Below are positions 11,440 through 42,218 of a stretch of 64,000 nucleotides of DNA, one piece after another. The notes beneath the pieces were generated by a model that was not told the DNA's origin, ran no database searches, and saw nothing but the letters and a program-made list of their open reading frames with translations. This stretch comes from Pseudomonadota bacterium. GTDB taxonomy: Bacteria > Pseudomonadota > Alphaproteobacteria > Micropepsales > Micropepsaceae. Both the position numbers and the translations under genes were made by a program. Location: positions 1 to 64,000 of the forward strand of contig JAFEEQ010000003.1 of the NCBI GenBank assembly GCA_018241025.1. The letters run 5' to 3'. The stretch's first letter is position 1. Each line of letters begins with the position of its first letter.

Positions 11440-11469
11440 TTGACGCGGCGCACCCAGCCGCACTAGGTT
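11440..11469 (+). promoter_or_regulatory. Candidate promoter of the btuB riboswitch transcript
   Basis: TTGACG (11440-11445) followed after 17-18 bases by CTAGGTT (11463-11469). The -35 is good and the -10 weak. The position immediately before the riboswitch aptamer is right for its transcript start. Confidence 0.4.
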
Positions 11470-11474
11470 CCGAC

Positions 11475-11763
11475 CCACGCGCTTGGTTTTGGGAACGCGG
11501 TTTGAAACCGCGGCTGCCCCCGCAACTGTAGCCGGCGAGCGATCCGTCCAAATGCCACTGGGGTTTCCCGGGAAGGCGGACGGGGAGCGAAGACCCGGCG
11601 AGCCAGGAGACCTGCCTTGCGCCGTCGTCCTGTTTCCGCTCGGGGTGAGGCGGGGACCGCGGGAGAAACCGCCGTGGCGACAAGGGGAGTCGTCGGGGTG
11701 GGTGTCATGCCAAACCAGAGAAGTGCTGCGCCGTGCGCGACGGCTCCTGTAACCCACAGGAGA
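11475..11763 (+). promoter_or_regulatory. Cobalamin (B12) riboswitch controlling btuB
   Basis: The aptamer (about 11475-11620) shows the conserved order GGTTTTGGGAACGCGGT, then GCTGCCCCCGCAACTGT, GCCACTG, GGGAAGGC, GACCCGGCGAG and the B12 box AGCCAGGAGACCTGCC (11601-11616). Downstream a perfect 7-bp hairpin CTCCTGT-AACCC-ACAGGAG (11744-11762) holds the btuB Shine-Dalgarno (CAGGAG) in its 3' arm. Its loop AACCC is complementary to GGGTT (11561-11565) in the aptamer P5 loop, fitting the L5-L13 kissing interaction known for this class. B12 binding would therefore block translation initiation. No terminator is seen. Confidence 0.93.
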
Positions 11764-11768
11764 ATGTC

Positions 11769-13745
11769 ATGCATAAGGAACTGCTTTTAGGATCCGCTTT
11801 GCTCGTTGGTCTGGCGTCAACGGCTCATGCCGACCCAGAAGTCACTGCGCTGTCCTCATCGCCAATTTATGGCCCCGAGACCATCACCGTCACCGCCACG
11901 CGCACCGAACAACCCATCGTGCTGACTGGCGCCTCTGTCAGCGTATTGACGGCGGAGGACCTCAAGACCCAGCAAACGATGCTGCTGACCGATGCATTGA
12001 AGGAAGTGCCTTCGCTCGTGGTGGTGCGCAACGGCGGCCTCGGCCAGCCGGCGAGCATCAGCCTGCGCGGCGCCGAGGCCGGACAAACGGTCGTGCTGAT
12101 CGACGGCGTACGCGTCAACGACGCCAGCACGACCGACGACAGCGCCGCCGCGGCGCTGGGCGATCTTTTGGTCAACAACATCGACCGCGTCGAAGTCCTG
12201 CGCGGCCCGCAATCGACGCTCTATGGCAGCGACGCCATCGGCGGCATCGTGAACATCGTCACCAAGCGCGGTGGCGACACGCTGTTCGGACTCGATGCCA
12301 GCGCCGAGGCCGGCTCTTTCGGCACCTTCCATGCCAGTGTCGCGGCCCATGGCAGCAACAACGTCGTGGAATACGGCGCGGGCCTGAGTTTCCTGACCAC
12401 CGCCGGCACGCCCGCGGCCGATGTGCGCAATGGCAATCCGGAGAATGACGGCTATACCAATTTCGGTGCGACCGCGAATGTCCGCGTCCATCTGAACGAC
12501 TGGCTGAGCGCAGATTTGCGCGGCTACTACACCCAAGGCCATGACGATTTCGACGACGGCTTCGGCGGCCCGCCGCTCTATACCGTTGCCGATTCCGCCG
12601 CCAACAATACCAATGAGCTGAAGGTCGGCTATCTCGGCCTCAACGCCGACCTGTTCGGCGGGCGGCTGCACAACCGCATCGCGCTTATCGGCACCGAGCA
12701 GGGGCGCATCTTTTACGACTCCGCCTCGGACATCACGCATCTCAATTACCAGTACTTCAGCAGTGCGGCGCGGTTCGAGTATCAGGGCACCTTCGATGTC
12801 GATGACGCGACGCAGATTGTGTTCGGTGCAGAGACGCAGTTCAGCACGTTCCGGAACGATAATTTCGGCACCTTCGCGTTCTTCTCGCCGCCGGTGATCG
12901 GCGGGCATGACCGCCTGACCGGCTACTACCTGCAGGGCCAGACGACGCTGTTCGAAGCGCTGACGCTGACCGGCGGCGTGCGCCTCGATGACGACGACCA
13001 GTTCGGCACGCACACCTCCTACAAGATCAACGCCGCCTATCAGCTCTTCCCGTGGAACACGGTTCTGCGGGCGAATATCGGCACCGGCTTCAAGGCGCCG
13101 AGCCTGTTCCAGGAGTTCGGGCCGAACTCCAATCCGATCGATACGCTGAAGCCGGAGACGGCGACCGGATGGGAAGCCGGGTTTGACACCGACCTGTTCG
13201 ACTCTCCAGTGCGTTTCTCGGCGACGTATTTCGACCGCACGACGTCGAACCAGATCGCGTTCCAGAACTGCTACACGCCTGCGGACGCACCGGGATGCCC
13301 GAGCCGCGTTGCGGTGTTCGGCTACTACCTCAACTTCGACAAGACGCGCGGCAACGGCATCGAACTCGAAGTGAAGGCGCCGATCGGCGACACGCTGGAG
13401 GCCAGCCTGCAATACACGAACATGACCTCGGTGAACGAGCTGAGCCATCTCGACCTGCCGCGCCGGCCGCACGACCTGGCAAGCGCGCTCGTCACCTGGC
13501 GACCGCTCGACGGAACGGTGCTCGGCTTCAGCGTCACCTATCAGGGCAAGCGCTTCAATGACGCCGGCAACTTCACGCCGCTGACCAGCAACACCACGGT
13601 GAACCTGTTCGGCTCTTATGATCTGTCGGATCAGTGGCAGCTCTTCGGCCGGATCGACAACCTGTTCAACGACCGTACCGAGGAGGTTACCGGCTACGGT
13701 GTGCCCGGAACCGGCGCCTTTGCCGGCATCCGCGCCGCTTTGTAA
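11769..13745 (+). CDS. btuB: TonB-dependent outer-membrane receptor, BtuB (cobalamin) type
   Basis: 658 residues. The ATG at 11769 follows CAGGAG, with a signal peptide MHKELLLGSALLVGLASTAHA. The TonB box is ETITVTATR. The plug domain shows PSLVVVRNGGLGQPASISLR and DRVEVLRGPQSTLYGSDAIG (then GIVNIVTK), and a 22-strand-type barrel follows with aromatic-rich strands. The cobalamin assignment comes from the riboswitch in its leader and BtuB-like plug motifs. The C-terminus ends FAGIRAAL, with Leu in place of the usual terminal aromatic residue. No btuFCD genes lie next to it. Confidence 0.88.
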   Translation: MHKELLLGSALLVGLASTAHADPEVTALSSSPIYGPETITVTATRTEQPIVLTGASVSVLTAEDLKTQQTMLLTDALKEVPSLVVVRNGGLGQPASISLRGAEAGQTVVLIDGVRVNDASTTDDSAAAALGDLLVNNIDRVEVLRGPQSTLYGSDAIGGIVNIVTKRGGDTLFGLDASAEAGSFGTFHASVAAHGSNNVVEYGAGLSFLTTAGTPAADVRNGNPENDGYTNFGATANVRVHLNDWLSADLRGYYTQGHDDFDDGFGGPPLYTVADSAANNTNELKVGYLGLNADLFGGRLHNRIALIGTEQGRIFYDSASDITHLNYQYFSSAARFEYQGTFDVDDATQIVFGAETQFSTFRNDNFGTFAFFSPPVIGGHDRLTGYYLQGQTTLFEALTLTGGVRLDDDDQFGTHTSYKINAAYQLFPWNTVLRANIGTGFKAPSLFQEFGPNSNPIDTLKPETATGWEAGFDTDLFDSPVRFSATYFDRTTSNQIAFQNCYTPADAPGCPSRVAVFGYYLNFDKTRGNGIELEVKAPIGDTLEASLQYTNMTSVNELSHLDLPRRPHDLASALVTWRPLDGTVLGFSVTYQGKRFNDAGNFTPLTSNTTVNLFGSYDLSDQWQLFGRIDNLFNDRTEEVTGYGVPGTGAFAGIRAAL

Positions 13746-13794
13746 CGGCCGTTAGGCCATGGCAGAGTCCGGGATCGACATTTCCGGACCTGCC

Positions 13795-16700
13795 ATGACC
13801 CTCTCCAGCATCCTGATCGCCAATCGCGGCGAGATCGCCGTGCGCATCGCGCGCGCCGCCGCCGAGCGCGGCCTGAAAAGCGTCGCGATCTATTCCGACG
13901 ACGACGCGACCTCCGCCCATGTGAAAGCCGCCGACAGCGCCATCGCGCTCGGCGCCAGCGGGCCGGCCGCCTATCTCGACATCGCCCGTGTGGTCGCGGC
14001 CGCCAAGACGGCGCATTGCGACGCGGTGCATCCCGGCTACGGCTTTCTGAGCGAGAATCCGCTCTTCGCCGAGGCCTGCGAGAAGGTCGGACTGACCTTC
14101 ATCGGCCCGAGCCCGCGCGTGCTCTCGATCTTCGGCGACAAGGCACGGGCTCGCGCACTGGCGGAACGCTTCGGCGTGCCGGTTCTGGCGGGCACCGAAG
14201 GTCCCGCGACGCTAGATCAGGTGCGCGACTTTTTCCGCAAACACGGCGCGATCGTGATCAAGGCCATCGCCGGCGGTGGCGGCCGCGGCATGCGCATCGT
14301 CACGAACGAGAACGATCTCGAAGCATCCTATCTGCGCTGCCAGTCCGAGGCGCGTGCCGCCTTCGGCAACGATCTCGTCTATGCCGAAGCGCTGATGAGC
14401 GATGCGCGCCATGTCGAGATCCAGGTCGTCGGCGACGGCAAATCGGCGGTGCATGTGTGGGAGCGCGACTGCACGCTCCAGCGCCGCCATCAGAAGATCG
14501 TCGAGATCGCACCCGCGCCCGGCCTCGATCCCGATCTGCGCAAGCAGCTTTGCGACGCCGCAGTATGGCTCGCCGACGACGTGAACCTGAAAGGCCTCGC
14601 GACCTTCGAATTTCTCGTGAACCCGAAGCCGCCGCGCCACGGCGCCGCCTTCGCCTTCATCGAGGCCAATCCGCGGCTCCAGGTCGAGCATACCGTCACC
14701 GAAGAGGTTACCGGCATCGATCTCGTCGGCGTGCAGATCGAGATCGCGCGCGGACGGTCGCTGCGCGAACTGGGCCTCGTGCAGGACGAAATCCCGGGGC
14801 CGCGCGGCTATGCCGTGCAGCTGCGCATCAACATGGAGAAGCTCGAGGCGGACGGTACCGTCAAGCCTTCCGGTGGCACGCTCACGCGCTTCACGCCGCC
14901 GTCGGGGCCCGGCGTGCGCGTCGATACCTTCGGTTATGAGGGTTATCGCACCAATCCGGCGTTCGATCCGCTGCTCGCCAAGCTGATCGTGCATGGTCCC
15001 GACTTCGCCTCGGCGATGACGCGGGCGAAGCGCGCGCTGGACGAATTCGCCATCGGCGGCGTCGCGACCAATGCCGGCTTTCTGCACGCCCTGATCTCAC
15101 GGCCCGACCTTATCGGCGGCACGGCGCATACGCGCTACGTCGAGAATCATGCCGCTGCGATCCTCGCCGACGCCGCTGCATGGCAGCCTGCTGCTACTGC
15201 GGTGTCTTCTACGACCGCAGCGCCTGCTCGCACAGAGTCCGCGGCTGTGCCGGCCGGCACGATCGCCGTTCCGGCGCCGATGCAGGGCAAGATCGTCTCC
15301 ATCGACGTGAAACCTGGCGATGTGGTGCGCCAGGGTTCGTCGGTCGCGGTACTGGAAGCGATGAAGATGGAGCATCTCGTCGCCGCCGCAATTTCGGGCC
15401 GGGTGCATTCCCTCGCACAGCAGGCGGGCACCGTGCTGTTCGAGGGCGACGCCCTGCTCTATCTGACGCCGGAAGCCGTCGCCGGCGCCGATACGCAGGC
15501 CGAAGCGGCGCGCGATCCCGACGCGATCCGCGCCGATCTGCAGGACGCGCTCGACCGTCACGCTTTCGGCTACGACGCCAACCGTCCCGACGCCGTTGCG
15601 CGGCGGCGCAAGACGGGCCAGCGCACAGTGCGCGAGAATCTCGAACAGCTCTGCGATCCGGACAGCTTCATCGAATACGGTGCCCTCGCCTTCGCAGCGC
15701 AGCGGCGGCGGCGCGAGCTCGACGATCTGATCAAGAACACGCCGGGCGACGGCATCGTCACCGGCATCGGCACGGTGAACGCGAAGGCGTTCGGCGAGCA
15801 GAAGGCACGCTGCGCGGTGATGGCCTATGACTACACCGTGCTCGCGGGCACGCAGGGCGCAATGAACCACCGCAAGAAGGACCGCCTGCTGAAGGTCGCG
15901 GAGGAGTGGAAACTGCCCATCGTGAGCTTCACCGAGGGCGGCGGGGGACGGCCGGGCGATACCGATTTCCCCGGCGTCGCCGGTCTCGATACGCCGACCT
16001 TCCGGCAATACGCCAAACTCTCCGGGCTGATCCCGCGTGTCGGGATCAATTCGGGACGTTGCTTCGCCGGCAATGCCGCGATCCTCGGCTGCTCCGATGT
16101 GGTGATCGCGACCGCGAATTCGAACATCGGCATGGGCGGCCCGGCGATGATCGAAGGCGGCGGCCTCGGCGTTTACAAACCCGAGGACGTCGGGCCGATG
16201 AGCGTGCAGGTCGCCAACGGCGTCGTCGACATCGCGGTCGCGGACGAGATCGAGGCCGTCGAAGCGGCGAAGAAATATCTCTCCTATTTCCAGGGCACGC
16301 TTTCGCATTGGGATGCCGCCAACCAGAAAGAGCTTCGTCACCTGATTCCGGAGAACCGGTTGCGCGTCTATGAAAGCCGCAAGGTGATCGACACGCTGGC
16401 CGACACGGGATCCGTGCTCGAACTGCGCGCCGGCTATGCGCCGGGCATGATCACCGCGCTGATCCGCATCGAGGGCGCGCCTTTCGGCCTCATCGCCAAC
16501 AACCCGATGCATCTCGCCGGCGCCATCGACGGCCCGTGCGCCGACAAGGCCGCGCGCTTCCTGCAGCTTTGCGACGCCTTCGGGCTGCCCATCGTTTCGC
16601 TCTGCGACACGCCGGGTTTCATGGTGGGGCCGGAGCACGAGAAGACCGCTCTGGTGCGGCGGGTATCGCGCATGTTCGTGGTCGGTGGCGCGCTCAGCGT

Positions 16701-17076
16701 GCCGATCTTCACCGTGGTGCTGCGCAAGGGTTACGGCCTCGGCGCGCAGGCGATGGCGGGCGGCAGCTTCCACGCGCCGTTCTTCATCGTGAGCTGGCCG
16801 ACCGGCGAGTTCGGCGGCATGGGCCTCGAAGGCGCGGCGCGTCTCGGCTACCGCAAAGAGCTGGAGGCCCAGCCGACCGAAGAAGCGCGCGACGCGCTGT
16901 TCAAGAAGCTGGTGGCGCAGAGCTACACCCGCGGCAAGGCGACCAACATGGCGGCCTATCTCGAGATCGACGACGTCATCGATCCCGCCGACACGCGGCG
17001 CTGGATCCTGCGTGGCTACAAGAGCCTTCCGCCCTGGGAGGCGAGCAAGCGGCGGGGATTTGTGGATACCTGGTGA
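13795..17076 (+). CDS. Single-chain biotin-dependent acyl-CoA carboxylase (BC-BCCP-CT fusion)
   Basis: 1093 residues from the ATG at 13795 (a longer start at 13759 is open). The biotin carboxylase domain (about 1-450) has ILIANRGEIAVRI, the ATP-grasp loop AGGGGRGM and EANPRLQVEHTVTEEVTGID. The biotin carrier domain (about 485-560) has VLEAMKMEHL with biotinylated K524. The carboxyltransferase (about 590-1093) carries both halves, with GGGGRPGDTDFPG and SLCDTPGFMVGPEHEKTA. Acetyl/propionyl-CoA carboxylases normally split these over two or three chains; the fused form resembles the long-chain acyl-CoA carboxylase (LCC) described from mycobacteria and Rhodopseudomonas. Substrate undetermined. 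Confidence 0.9.
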   Translation: MTLSSILIANRGEIAVRIARAAAERGLKSVAIYSDDDATSAHVKAADSAIALGASGPAAYLDIARVVAAAKTAHCDAVHPGYGFLSENPLFAEACEKVGLTFIGPSPRVLSIFGDKARARALAERFGVPVLAGTEGPATLDQVRDFFRKHGAIVIKAIAGGGGRGMRIVTNENDLEASYLRCQSEARAAFGNDLVYAEALMSDARHVEIQVVGDGKSAVHVWERDCTLQRRHQKIVEIAPAPGLDPDLRKQLCDAAVWLADDVNLKGLATFEFLVNPKPPRHGAAFAFIEANPRLQVEHTVTEEVTGIDLVGVQIEIARGRSLRELGLVQDEIPGPRGYAVQLRINMEKLEADGTVKPSGGTLTRFTPPSGPGVRVDTFGYEGYRTNPAFDPLLAKLIVHGPDFASAMTRAKRALDEFAIGGVATNAGFLHALISRPDLIGGTAHTRYVENHAAAILADAAAWQPAATAVSSTTAAPARTESAAVPAGTIAVPAPMQGKIVSIDVKPGDVVRQGSSVAVLEAMKMEHLVAAAISGRVHSLAQQAGTVLFEGDALLYLTPEAVAGADTQAEAARDPDAIRADLQDALDRHAFGYDANRPDAVARRRKTGQRTVRENLEQLCDPDSFIEYGALAFAAQRRRRELDDLIKNTPGDGIVTGIGTVNAKAFGEQKARCAVMAYDYTVLAGTQGAMNHRKKDRLLKVAEEWKLPIVSFTEGGGGRPGDTDFPGVAGLDTPTFRQYAKLSGLIPRVGINSGRCFAGNAAILGCSDVVIATANSNIGMGGPAMIEGGGLGVYKPEDVGPMSVQVANGVVDIAVADEIEAVEAAKKYLSYFQGTLSHWDAANQKELRHLIPENRLRVYESRKVIDTLADTGSVLELRAGYAPGMITALIRIEGAPFGLIANNPMHLAGAIDGPCADKAARFLQLCDAFGLPIVSLCDTPGFMVGPEHEKTALVRRVSRMFVVGGALSVPIFTVVLRKGYGLGAQAMAGGSFHAPFFIVSWPTGEFGGMGLEGAARLGYRKELEAQPTEEARDALFKKLVAQSYTRGKATNMAAYLEIDDVIDPADTRRWILRGYKSLPPWEASKRRGFVDTW

Positions 17077-41006: not shown

Positions 41007-41018
41007 GATCGCGGGCCA

Positions 41019-41060
41019 CACCGCCCCAACGCGGTGCGAACATTCTGGAAGGAATGTCTG
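41019..41060 (+). promoter_or_regulatory. serC leader hairpins
   Basis: Hairpin 1 is CACCGC-CCCAAC-GCGGTG (41019-41036). Hairpin 2 is ACATTC-TGGAAG-GAATGT (41040-41057), whose loop and 3' arm hold the serC Shine-Dalgarno (GGAAGG). A serC leader RNA motif has been described upstream of serC in alphaproteobacteria; whether this is that motif needs a covariance-model search. Together with the terminator inside serC it looks like an attenuation region. Confidence 0.55.
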
Positions 41061-42218
41061 ATGACCGGTAATACGCCGGCCGTGCGCCCTGCACGGCCTT
41101 TTTTTTCGTCCGGACCCTGCGCCAAACGGCCGGGATGGACTCCTGAAGCGCTCAACAGCGCGCTTCTCGGGCGCTCGCATCGTTCGAAGCCCGGCAAAGC
41201 CAAGCTGAAAGACGCGATCGACCGCACCAAGGCGCTGCTCGGCATTCCCGCCGATTATCGCGTCGGCATCGTGCCGGCTTCCGACACGGGCGCCGTGGAG
41301 ATGGCGCTGTGGTCGATGCTCGGGCCGCGCCCCGTCGACTGTTTTGCCTGGGAAAGCTTCGGCGAGGACTGGGTCACCGACACGGTGAAGCAGCTCAAGA
41401 TCAAGGACGCCCGCGTGATCAAGGCGGGCTATGGCGATCTGCCGGACCTGACGCAGGCCGATCCCACGCATGACATCGTGTTCCTGTGGAACGGCACGAC
41501 CAGCGGCGTGCGCGTGCCCGATGCCGACTGGATCGCGAAGGACCGCGAGGGCCTGACGATCTGCGACGCGACCTCGGCCGCCTTCGCGATGGACCTGCCC
41601 TGGGACAAGCTCGATGTCACCACCTTCTCCTGGCAGAAGGTGCTGGGCGGCGAGGCGGCGCATGGCATGCTGGTGCTCAGCCCGCGCGCGGTGGCGCGAC
41701 TCGAATCGTATACGCCGCCCTGGCCGCTGCCGAAGATCTTCCGCATGACCAAGGGCGGAAAGATCGTCGACGGCATCTTCGAAGGCGAGACCATCAACAC
41801 GCCGTCGATGCTGGCGCTGGAGGATTACCTCGACGCGCTCACCTGGGCCGAGGGCATCGGCGGGCTGAAGGGCCTGATCGCGCGCAGCCAGGCCAATCTC
41901 GGCGTGCTCGACCGCTGGGTGCGCGAATGCGGCTGGGCCGATTTCCTCGCCCGCGAACAGGGCGCGCGCTCCAACACGAGCGTGTGCCTGAAGATCGTCG
42001 ATCCGTGGTTCCAGGGTCTCGGTGAAGACGCCCAGGCCGATGCCGCGAAGAAGATCGCCACGCTGCTCGAGAAGGAAGGCGTCGCGCTCGACATCGCCGG
42101 CTATCGCTCGGCGCCGCCGGGGCTGCGTATCTGGTGCGGCGCGACGGTCGACAAGGCCGATCTCGAAGCCCTGACGCCCTGGCTCGACTGGGCCTGGGCC
42201 AAGGTGAAAGCCGCCTGA
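41061..42218 (+). CDS. serC: Phosphoserine aminotransferase
   Basis: 385 residues, PLP enzyme converting 3-phosphohydroxypyruvate to phosphoserine. [20 protein letters not shown] and [20 protein letters not shown] are typical of the alphaproteobacterial SerC branch; [16 protein letters not shown] and PLP lysine K193 in [15 protein letters not shown] are visible. GGAAGG precedes the ATG at 41061. First gene of serC-sseB-serA. The N-terminal codons [10 protein letters not shown] double as the terminator hairpin and T run. Confidence 0.94.
41078..41106 (+). terminator. Intrinsic terminator-like hairpin inside the start of serC
   Basis: GGCCGTGC (41078-41085), loop GCCCT, GCACGGCC (41091-41098), then eight T (41099-41106). 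It has a perfect 8-bp GC-rich stem and an uninterrupted T run, a textbook rho-independent terminator, yet it lies in codons 6-16 of serC. The downstream SerC protein is intact, so the signal must be conditional if it works. Confidence 0.75.

Follow-up and report, generated by a model that had tools for sequence, protein, structure and literature searches.

The 64,000-nt stretch of DNA analysed here (the window) carries, in front of a btuB-type gene, what is probably a cobalamin riboswitch acting on translation, as that of E. coli btuB does: loop L5 of the aptamer would dock on loop L13, a chain of helices would follow, and a hairpin would close over the Shine-Dalgarno sequence (SD), with B12 as the repressor. 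More tentatively, and with somewhat less than even confidence, we propose that the kissing loop gates the SD hairpin, some 100 nt distant, by way of an order-specific relay, an exclusion chain of helices that we refer to as PX/PY, PZ and AS, which would be fixed in the leaders of btuB genes in a single alphaproteobacterial order and would also serve in front of a second group of TonB-receptor genes.

The aptamer is predicted at 11448–11633 on the + strand, on which all leader features given below also lie. The covariance model RF00174 matches there over its full length (model positions 1–189 of 189) with 111.4 bits (E 4.5e-27), the gathering score being 31.5, and its alignment places the B12-box segment, GCCAGGAGACCUGCC, at 11602–11616. 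The ATG at 11769, 3' of the aptamer, opens the gene of a btuB-type TonB-dependent receptor of 658 residues (11769–13745, +; PF00593 148.9 bits, PF07715 89.9 bits). A sequence-only reading of this DNA had named a cobalamin riboswitch before a btuB-type gene, and these matches bear it out. That B12 is the substrate of the receptor we infer from the riboswitch upstream. Directly 3' of btuB, 13759–17076 (+) encodes a 1105-residue fused biotin carboxylase/biotin carrier/carboxyltransferase of the acyl-CoA carboxylase type; one can only guess at a connection between this carboxylase and the B12-dependent use of propionate. Elsewhere in the window, at 41009–41061 (+), lies a serC leader RNA (RF00517, 49.6 bits).

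Of 96 genomes sampled from the window's family, 90 contain a match to RF00174. Among the matches listed we read 132 loci; by pattern, 120 of these yielded 121 aptamers, and the other 12 had no match. A relative of the window's receptor lies downstream of 67 of the 121 aptamers, and 29 of these relatives, the window's own included, are close (at least 47% identity). Our alignment (A1) comprises 28 leaders, the window and 27 orthologs, from the aptamer to the start codon, and leaves out L072. This ortholog has no SD hairpin, and its ATG stands 108 nt past the B12 box, right behind PZ. At one locus of the sample (L004, G067:C1) two divergent cobalamin aptamers, 1357131–1357327 (-) and 1357409–1357597 (+), lie about 80 bp apart.

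The pseudoknot of cobalamin riboswitches is reported to sit at "a specific C-rich loop" (PMC2258182), and the consensus of L5 is given as UCCCG (PMC10653944). In the window, L5 is CCCCCG at 11517–11522, inside GCUGCCCCCGCAACUG (11513–11528), a position assigned by RF00174. Its kissing bases CCCCG (11518–11522) are complementary to CGGGG (11641–11645) in the loop of P13, a 9-bp hairpin at 11632–11657 that starts 15 nt past the B12-box segment and has its loop, L13, at 11641–11648 (CGGGGUGA). All five L5–L13 pairs can form in 28 of 28 leaders. P13 itself is paired in 96% of cells, with a change on both sides in six of its nine pairs. The loop of PZ, AAGGGGA, was tried as L13 and rejected because it is variable, whereas the CGGGG of P13 is fixed. 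CCCCC occurs in L5 of 120 of the 121 pattern-located aptamers (132 loci, among the matches listed); L5 and L13 are invariant within the order, so they are conserved rather than covarying there. Among the class loci, read by eye among the matches listed because the automatic table missed many P13 hairpins and had some wrong rows, a U before CCCG in L5 faces an A in L13 in three of three (L170, L173, L188), and a C faces a G in 19 of 20 (L002 included; L185 is the exception). The automatic placement of P13 was wrong in L001, L181, L183 and L195, PX was misnamed in several loci, and L186 has no L5 by pattern. An L5 of UACCCG occurs in L175, L179, L180 and L190, and in three of the four L13 reads CGGG, then a bulge and UA; these three (L175, L179, L190) resemble the kissing loop with a bulge that is reported in env8. 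In E. coli btuB (L133), L5 ACGC faces L13 GCGU. By complementarity, then, the leader has a predicted L5–L13 kissing loop that covaries outside the order, in the class.

At the start codon, CUCCUGU (11744–11750) and ACAGGAG (11756–11762) form a 7-bp hairpin around the loop AACCC (11751–11755). This SD hairpin (11744–11762; P14 in the naming of E. coli btuB) buries the SD, AGGAG at 11758–11762, which ends 6 nt before the ATG. It is the predicted fold of 11738–11768 (-13.2 kcal/mol; z -4.15, with none of 200 shuffles reaching this energy), and across the 28 leaders 97.4% of its cells are paired while the loop-closing pair is GC, AU, UA or CG. To judge by this comparison, the hairpin at the start codon covaries and is distinct from P13, as in E. 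coli btuB. The hairpin that the earlier reading had drawn over the btuB SD is thus found where it was drawn, and the translational control deduced from it is likewise supported, since an SD locked in a hairpin points to control of translation. An outer extension (11739–11742/11765–11768) is paired in only 5 to 25 of the 28 leaders, and we do not claim it. Free folding of the whole leader gave nothing better than shuffles (z -1.09), as did folding of the 142-nt platform alone (z -0.87).

The anti-SD strand of this hairpin has a second potential partner. In the window, 11685–11695 (GGGAGUCGUCG), a putative anti-anti-SD strand, is able to form 11 pairs with 11738–11748 (CGACGGCUCCU), a segment that overlaps the anti-SD strand, and would thereby take that strand away from the SD hairpin. 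We refer to this anti-SD:anti-anti-SD helix as AS. We scanned 1542 pairs of 14-nt segments and ranked them by how far self duplex energies differ from cross duplex energies; P13 came first and AS 11th, the ten places ahead of AS being taken by aptamer helices, P13 and PZ. Over the 28 leaders the 11 pairs of AS are paired in 81.5% of 303 cells, compared with 35–57% when the strands are slid; five pairs are changed on both sides, and only 3 of 500 shuffles reach its pairing and 7 of 500 its covariation score. AS is imperfect, 11685/11748 being paired in 4 of 28 leaders and 11693/11740 in 7 of 28 (2 gapped).

An alternative reading would keep the SD hairpin and PZ permanently formed, let the ligand act by mRNA decay or Rho-dependent termination, and explain AS as a side effect of the recurring words GGAG and GUCGUC. 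The computed energies given below, in which the set that hides the SD is the ground state in most leaders, favour such a reading, which we nevertheless regard as unlikely because AS changes along with the anti-SD in five leaders from about three lineages while the SD stays AGGAG. The AS strands are AGAGUC with GACUCU in L024 and L039, GAAGUC with GGCUUC in L031 (a run of 15 pairs), and GAGGUC with GGCUUC in L119 and L128 (13 pairs in L128); AS therefore follows the anti-SD and not the SD. A control with reversed strands, furthermore, has no gap between self and cross energies in either leader set, which argues against a by-product of repeated words. In group 2, the 21 more distant TonB leaders, self pairing of AS averages -20.3 and cross pairing -18.6, with 2 of 5000 permutations as good, kinship ignored; in group 1 the count, again with kinship ignored, is 194 of 5000 with corrected borders (1 of 5000 with four rows misplaced). 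By script, a run of at least 7 pairs is present in 16 of the 21 group 2 leaders, several of these runs lying off the anti-SD (for example in L103, L078 and L009), and L065, L091, L104, L121 and L124 have a shorter run. Sequence and covariation support a helix AS that would exclude the SD hairpin, and the computed energies stand against it.

The hairpin begins 127 nt after the end of the B12 box at 11616, in agreement with the "almost 130" bases given earlier. The description of this spacer as long holds by comparison with E. coli btuB, where 97 nt separate the B12 box from the start codon and the window has 167, but not among the orthologs: the distance is 158–217 nt across the 28 leaders, with a median of 177 over the 29 that include L072 (108), so the window's spacer is normal for its group. 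Three helices occupy it in addition to P13 and AS. PX (11624–11629/11676–11681; 11624–11681) encloses P13 and PY and is paired in 99.4% of cells, mostly invariant. PY is a small hairpin at 11659–11672 (11659–11662/11669–11672), paired in 89.8% of cells, with two of its four pairs changed on both sides. PZ spans 11669–11701, and its two parts, 11669–11672/11698–11701 and 11675–11681/11689–11695, are paired in 90.7% and 98.4% of cells.

We examined how far this platform extends with R1, a covariance model of the B12 box, P13 and PZ that was derived from the order itself and is hence biased towards it. Within the window's order, whose sample consists of the same 96 genomes as that of the family, R1 matches 82 genomes at E<=0.001, and a hand count of the match list gives 73 places in 67 genomes of the order at 74 bits or more. 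R1 was also run on 289 genomes of the class, at least four of which belong to the window's genus; beyond this genus its scores reach 58.2 bits at most. By script, among the matches listed, one (L178) of the 26 loci taken from other parts of the class has a PZ-like run of at least 7 pairs; PZ thus appears, from these sequences, to be confined mostly to the order. Six loci (L012, L013, L014, L020, L026 and L063) share a different recurring post-aptamer platform (GUGUCACGC...GCGGUGACA) without the CCGGGG loop of P13.

PX and PY share strands with PZ, PZ shares 11689–11695 with AS, and AS shares 11744–11748 with the SD hairpin. These mutually exclusive helices suggest a strand-exchange relay from the kissing loop to the SD. 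Two compatible sets can be drawn: an open set of PX, P13, PY and AS, in which the SD would be free, and a hidden set of P13 docked on L5, PZ and the SD hairpin, in which it would be occluded. The hidden set is paired in 96.8% of 887 cells, as opposed to 40–53% when slid, with nine pairs changed on both sides and a covariation score of 0.233 (0.162 shuffled, 0.04–0.08 slid). The open set is paired in 90.6% of 831 cells, with 13 pairs changed on both sides and a score of 0.246 (0.182 shuffled). Binding of B12 would favour the L5–L13 dock; P13 docked on L5 would disfavour PX, so that PZ could form and AS could not, and the SD hairpin would then close and stop translation. Without B12, the anti-anti-SD strand would hold the anti-SD strand in AS and the gene would be translated. 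Nearest-neighbour energies favour the hidden set in 25 of 28 leaders, with one tie and two leaders favouring the open set (open minus hidden: mean +6.2 kcal/mol, window +7.8), and the open state would therefore have to be kinetic or helped.

The direction of this switch, repression by B12, is presumed by analogy with E. coli btuB, as reported in PMC11162775. The same anatomy could also work with the opposite sign, the dock stabilising PX, the 3' strand of PZ being freed, AS forming and B12 opening the SD. An activating corrinoid riboswitch has a precedent in A. halodurans cobT (PMC10653944). PX, moreover, lies directly between the aptamer and P13 and is paired in nearly every cell, and a computed ground state that hides the SD would suit a switch opened by its ligand. 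We nevertheless consider activation quite unlikely, because B12 would be expected to repress the genes for its own uptake. A btuB fusion of E. coli is reported to be 97% repressed by AdoCbl (PMC11162775).

A different anti-anti-SD strand could be the B12 box itself, whose CAGGAG (11604–11609) is complementary to the CUCCUG of the hairpin. The six complementary bases are each paired in 27–28 of 28 leaders and the duplex is strong (mean -14.8 kcal/mol), but self pairing is no better than cross pairing (z +1.6). Since the aptamer constrains the B12 box and the ribosome constrains the SD, the two would match in any case and no covariation is possible. We judge this pairing very unlikely to be the switch, and keep it as a rival reading.

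The sequence-only reading had also proposed a tertiary contact, in which an aptamer loop GGGTT (11561–11565), taken as L5, meets the loop AACCC (11751–11755) of the SD hairpin, taken as L13, and locks the SD upon B12 binding. The two are exact reverse complements in the window, but GGGTT is not a free loop: in both the Rfam alignment and the fold G11560–G11562 pair with C11567–C11569 and only GUU is left unpaired, and 11561–11568 and 11562–11567 are paired in 28 of 28 leaders, which puts two Gs of GGGTT in a stem. By the RF00174 alignment and the fold, GGGTT is the tip (L11 in E. coli btuB numbering) of an arm at 11555–11576, CCACUGGGGUUUCCCGGGAAGG. The numbering and sequence of E. coli indicate that this arm, CCACUG...GGGAAGG, corresponds to P10–P11, which is described in E. 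coli btuB with J11/10 (PMC5359240). The assignment to L5 and L13 is thus mistaken, L5 being the C-rich loop elsewhere and L13 the loop of P13; the real L5 is complementary to AACCC at one base only.

Comparison of the leaders likewise speaks against this contact. Between 11561–11565 and 11751–11755, 37.4% of 115 cells are paired, below the shuffled mean of 40.3%, and 470 of 500 shuffles reach the same level; two pairs are changed on both sides, with a covariation score of 0.063 against 0.083 shuffled. Self and cross energies of the arm tip and the SD-hairpin loop are alike (988 of 5000 permutations as good), and that loop varies from 3 to 9 nt among the orthologs. A Watson-Crick run of 5 occurs in only two of 28 leaders (the window and L128), the nearest orthologs L060, L083 and L089 have runs of 2, 3 and 3, and in L055 and L064, where the script took the arm too long, the best run is still only 3. 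When the 296-nt leader is shuffled by dinucleotides 2000 times, at least one GGGTT arises in 904 cases, so the complementarity is no more than chance. In env8 the hairpin with the ribosome-binding site (RBS) is P13 and is reported to kiss the aptamer (PMC10907184), and an RBS hairpin is therefore a possible docking partner in principle. For the window, we rejected GGGTT/AACCC as a conserved contact; a kiss between the two is hardly credible, and the match is, as far as these leaders tell, a chance coincidence.

The known system closest in outline is E. coli btuB, which shares with the window the aptamer, the L5–L13 kiss with a P13 that follows the aptamer closely, an SD hairpin (P14) distinct from P13, and the btuB gene. 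Its SD is reported to be hidden under AdoCbl by P13, in the pseudoknot, and P14, and its ON state to contain an anti-SD:anti-anti-SD helix (PMC11162775). The window differs by the added helices PX, PY and PZ, and R1 gives the E. coli leader only 9.2 bits (E 0.96). The env8HyCbl riboswitch, as described, is also translational, with a kissing loop and SD occlusion, but its P13 carries the RBS in the loop, whereas P13 and the SD hairpin are two elements in the window. In the corrinoid riboswitches of P. megaterium metE and A. halodurans cobT, an L5–L13 kiss similarly gates competing downstream helices; these are, in the account of PMC10653944, transcriptional terminators with no SD hairpin. In a second riboswitch of the window's genome (L002, G000:C8, a btuCD-type leader), the aptamer is likewise followed by PX and by a P13 whose loop reads GGGGUU, but PZ was not found there (best run 4 bp) and a coding frame starts close behind. 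This riboswitch (L002 1501–1619) lies upstream of a permease, which from its translation we take to be of the BtuC type, and then an ATPase-like frame.

The riboswitch itself is ordinary, and its platform is a modest variant. Our literature searches found no printed account of the PX/PY/PZ/AS platform, and a study of corrinoid platforms states that the changes induced in them by binding had remained unknown (PMC10653944). The analysis corrects a wrong but plausible tertiary contact and shows that a 5-nt loop match arises easily. About fifty natural leaders (28 and 21) name the competing strands of the platform, so that the chain could be tested with a few mutants.
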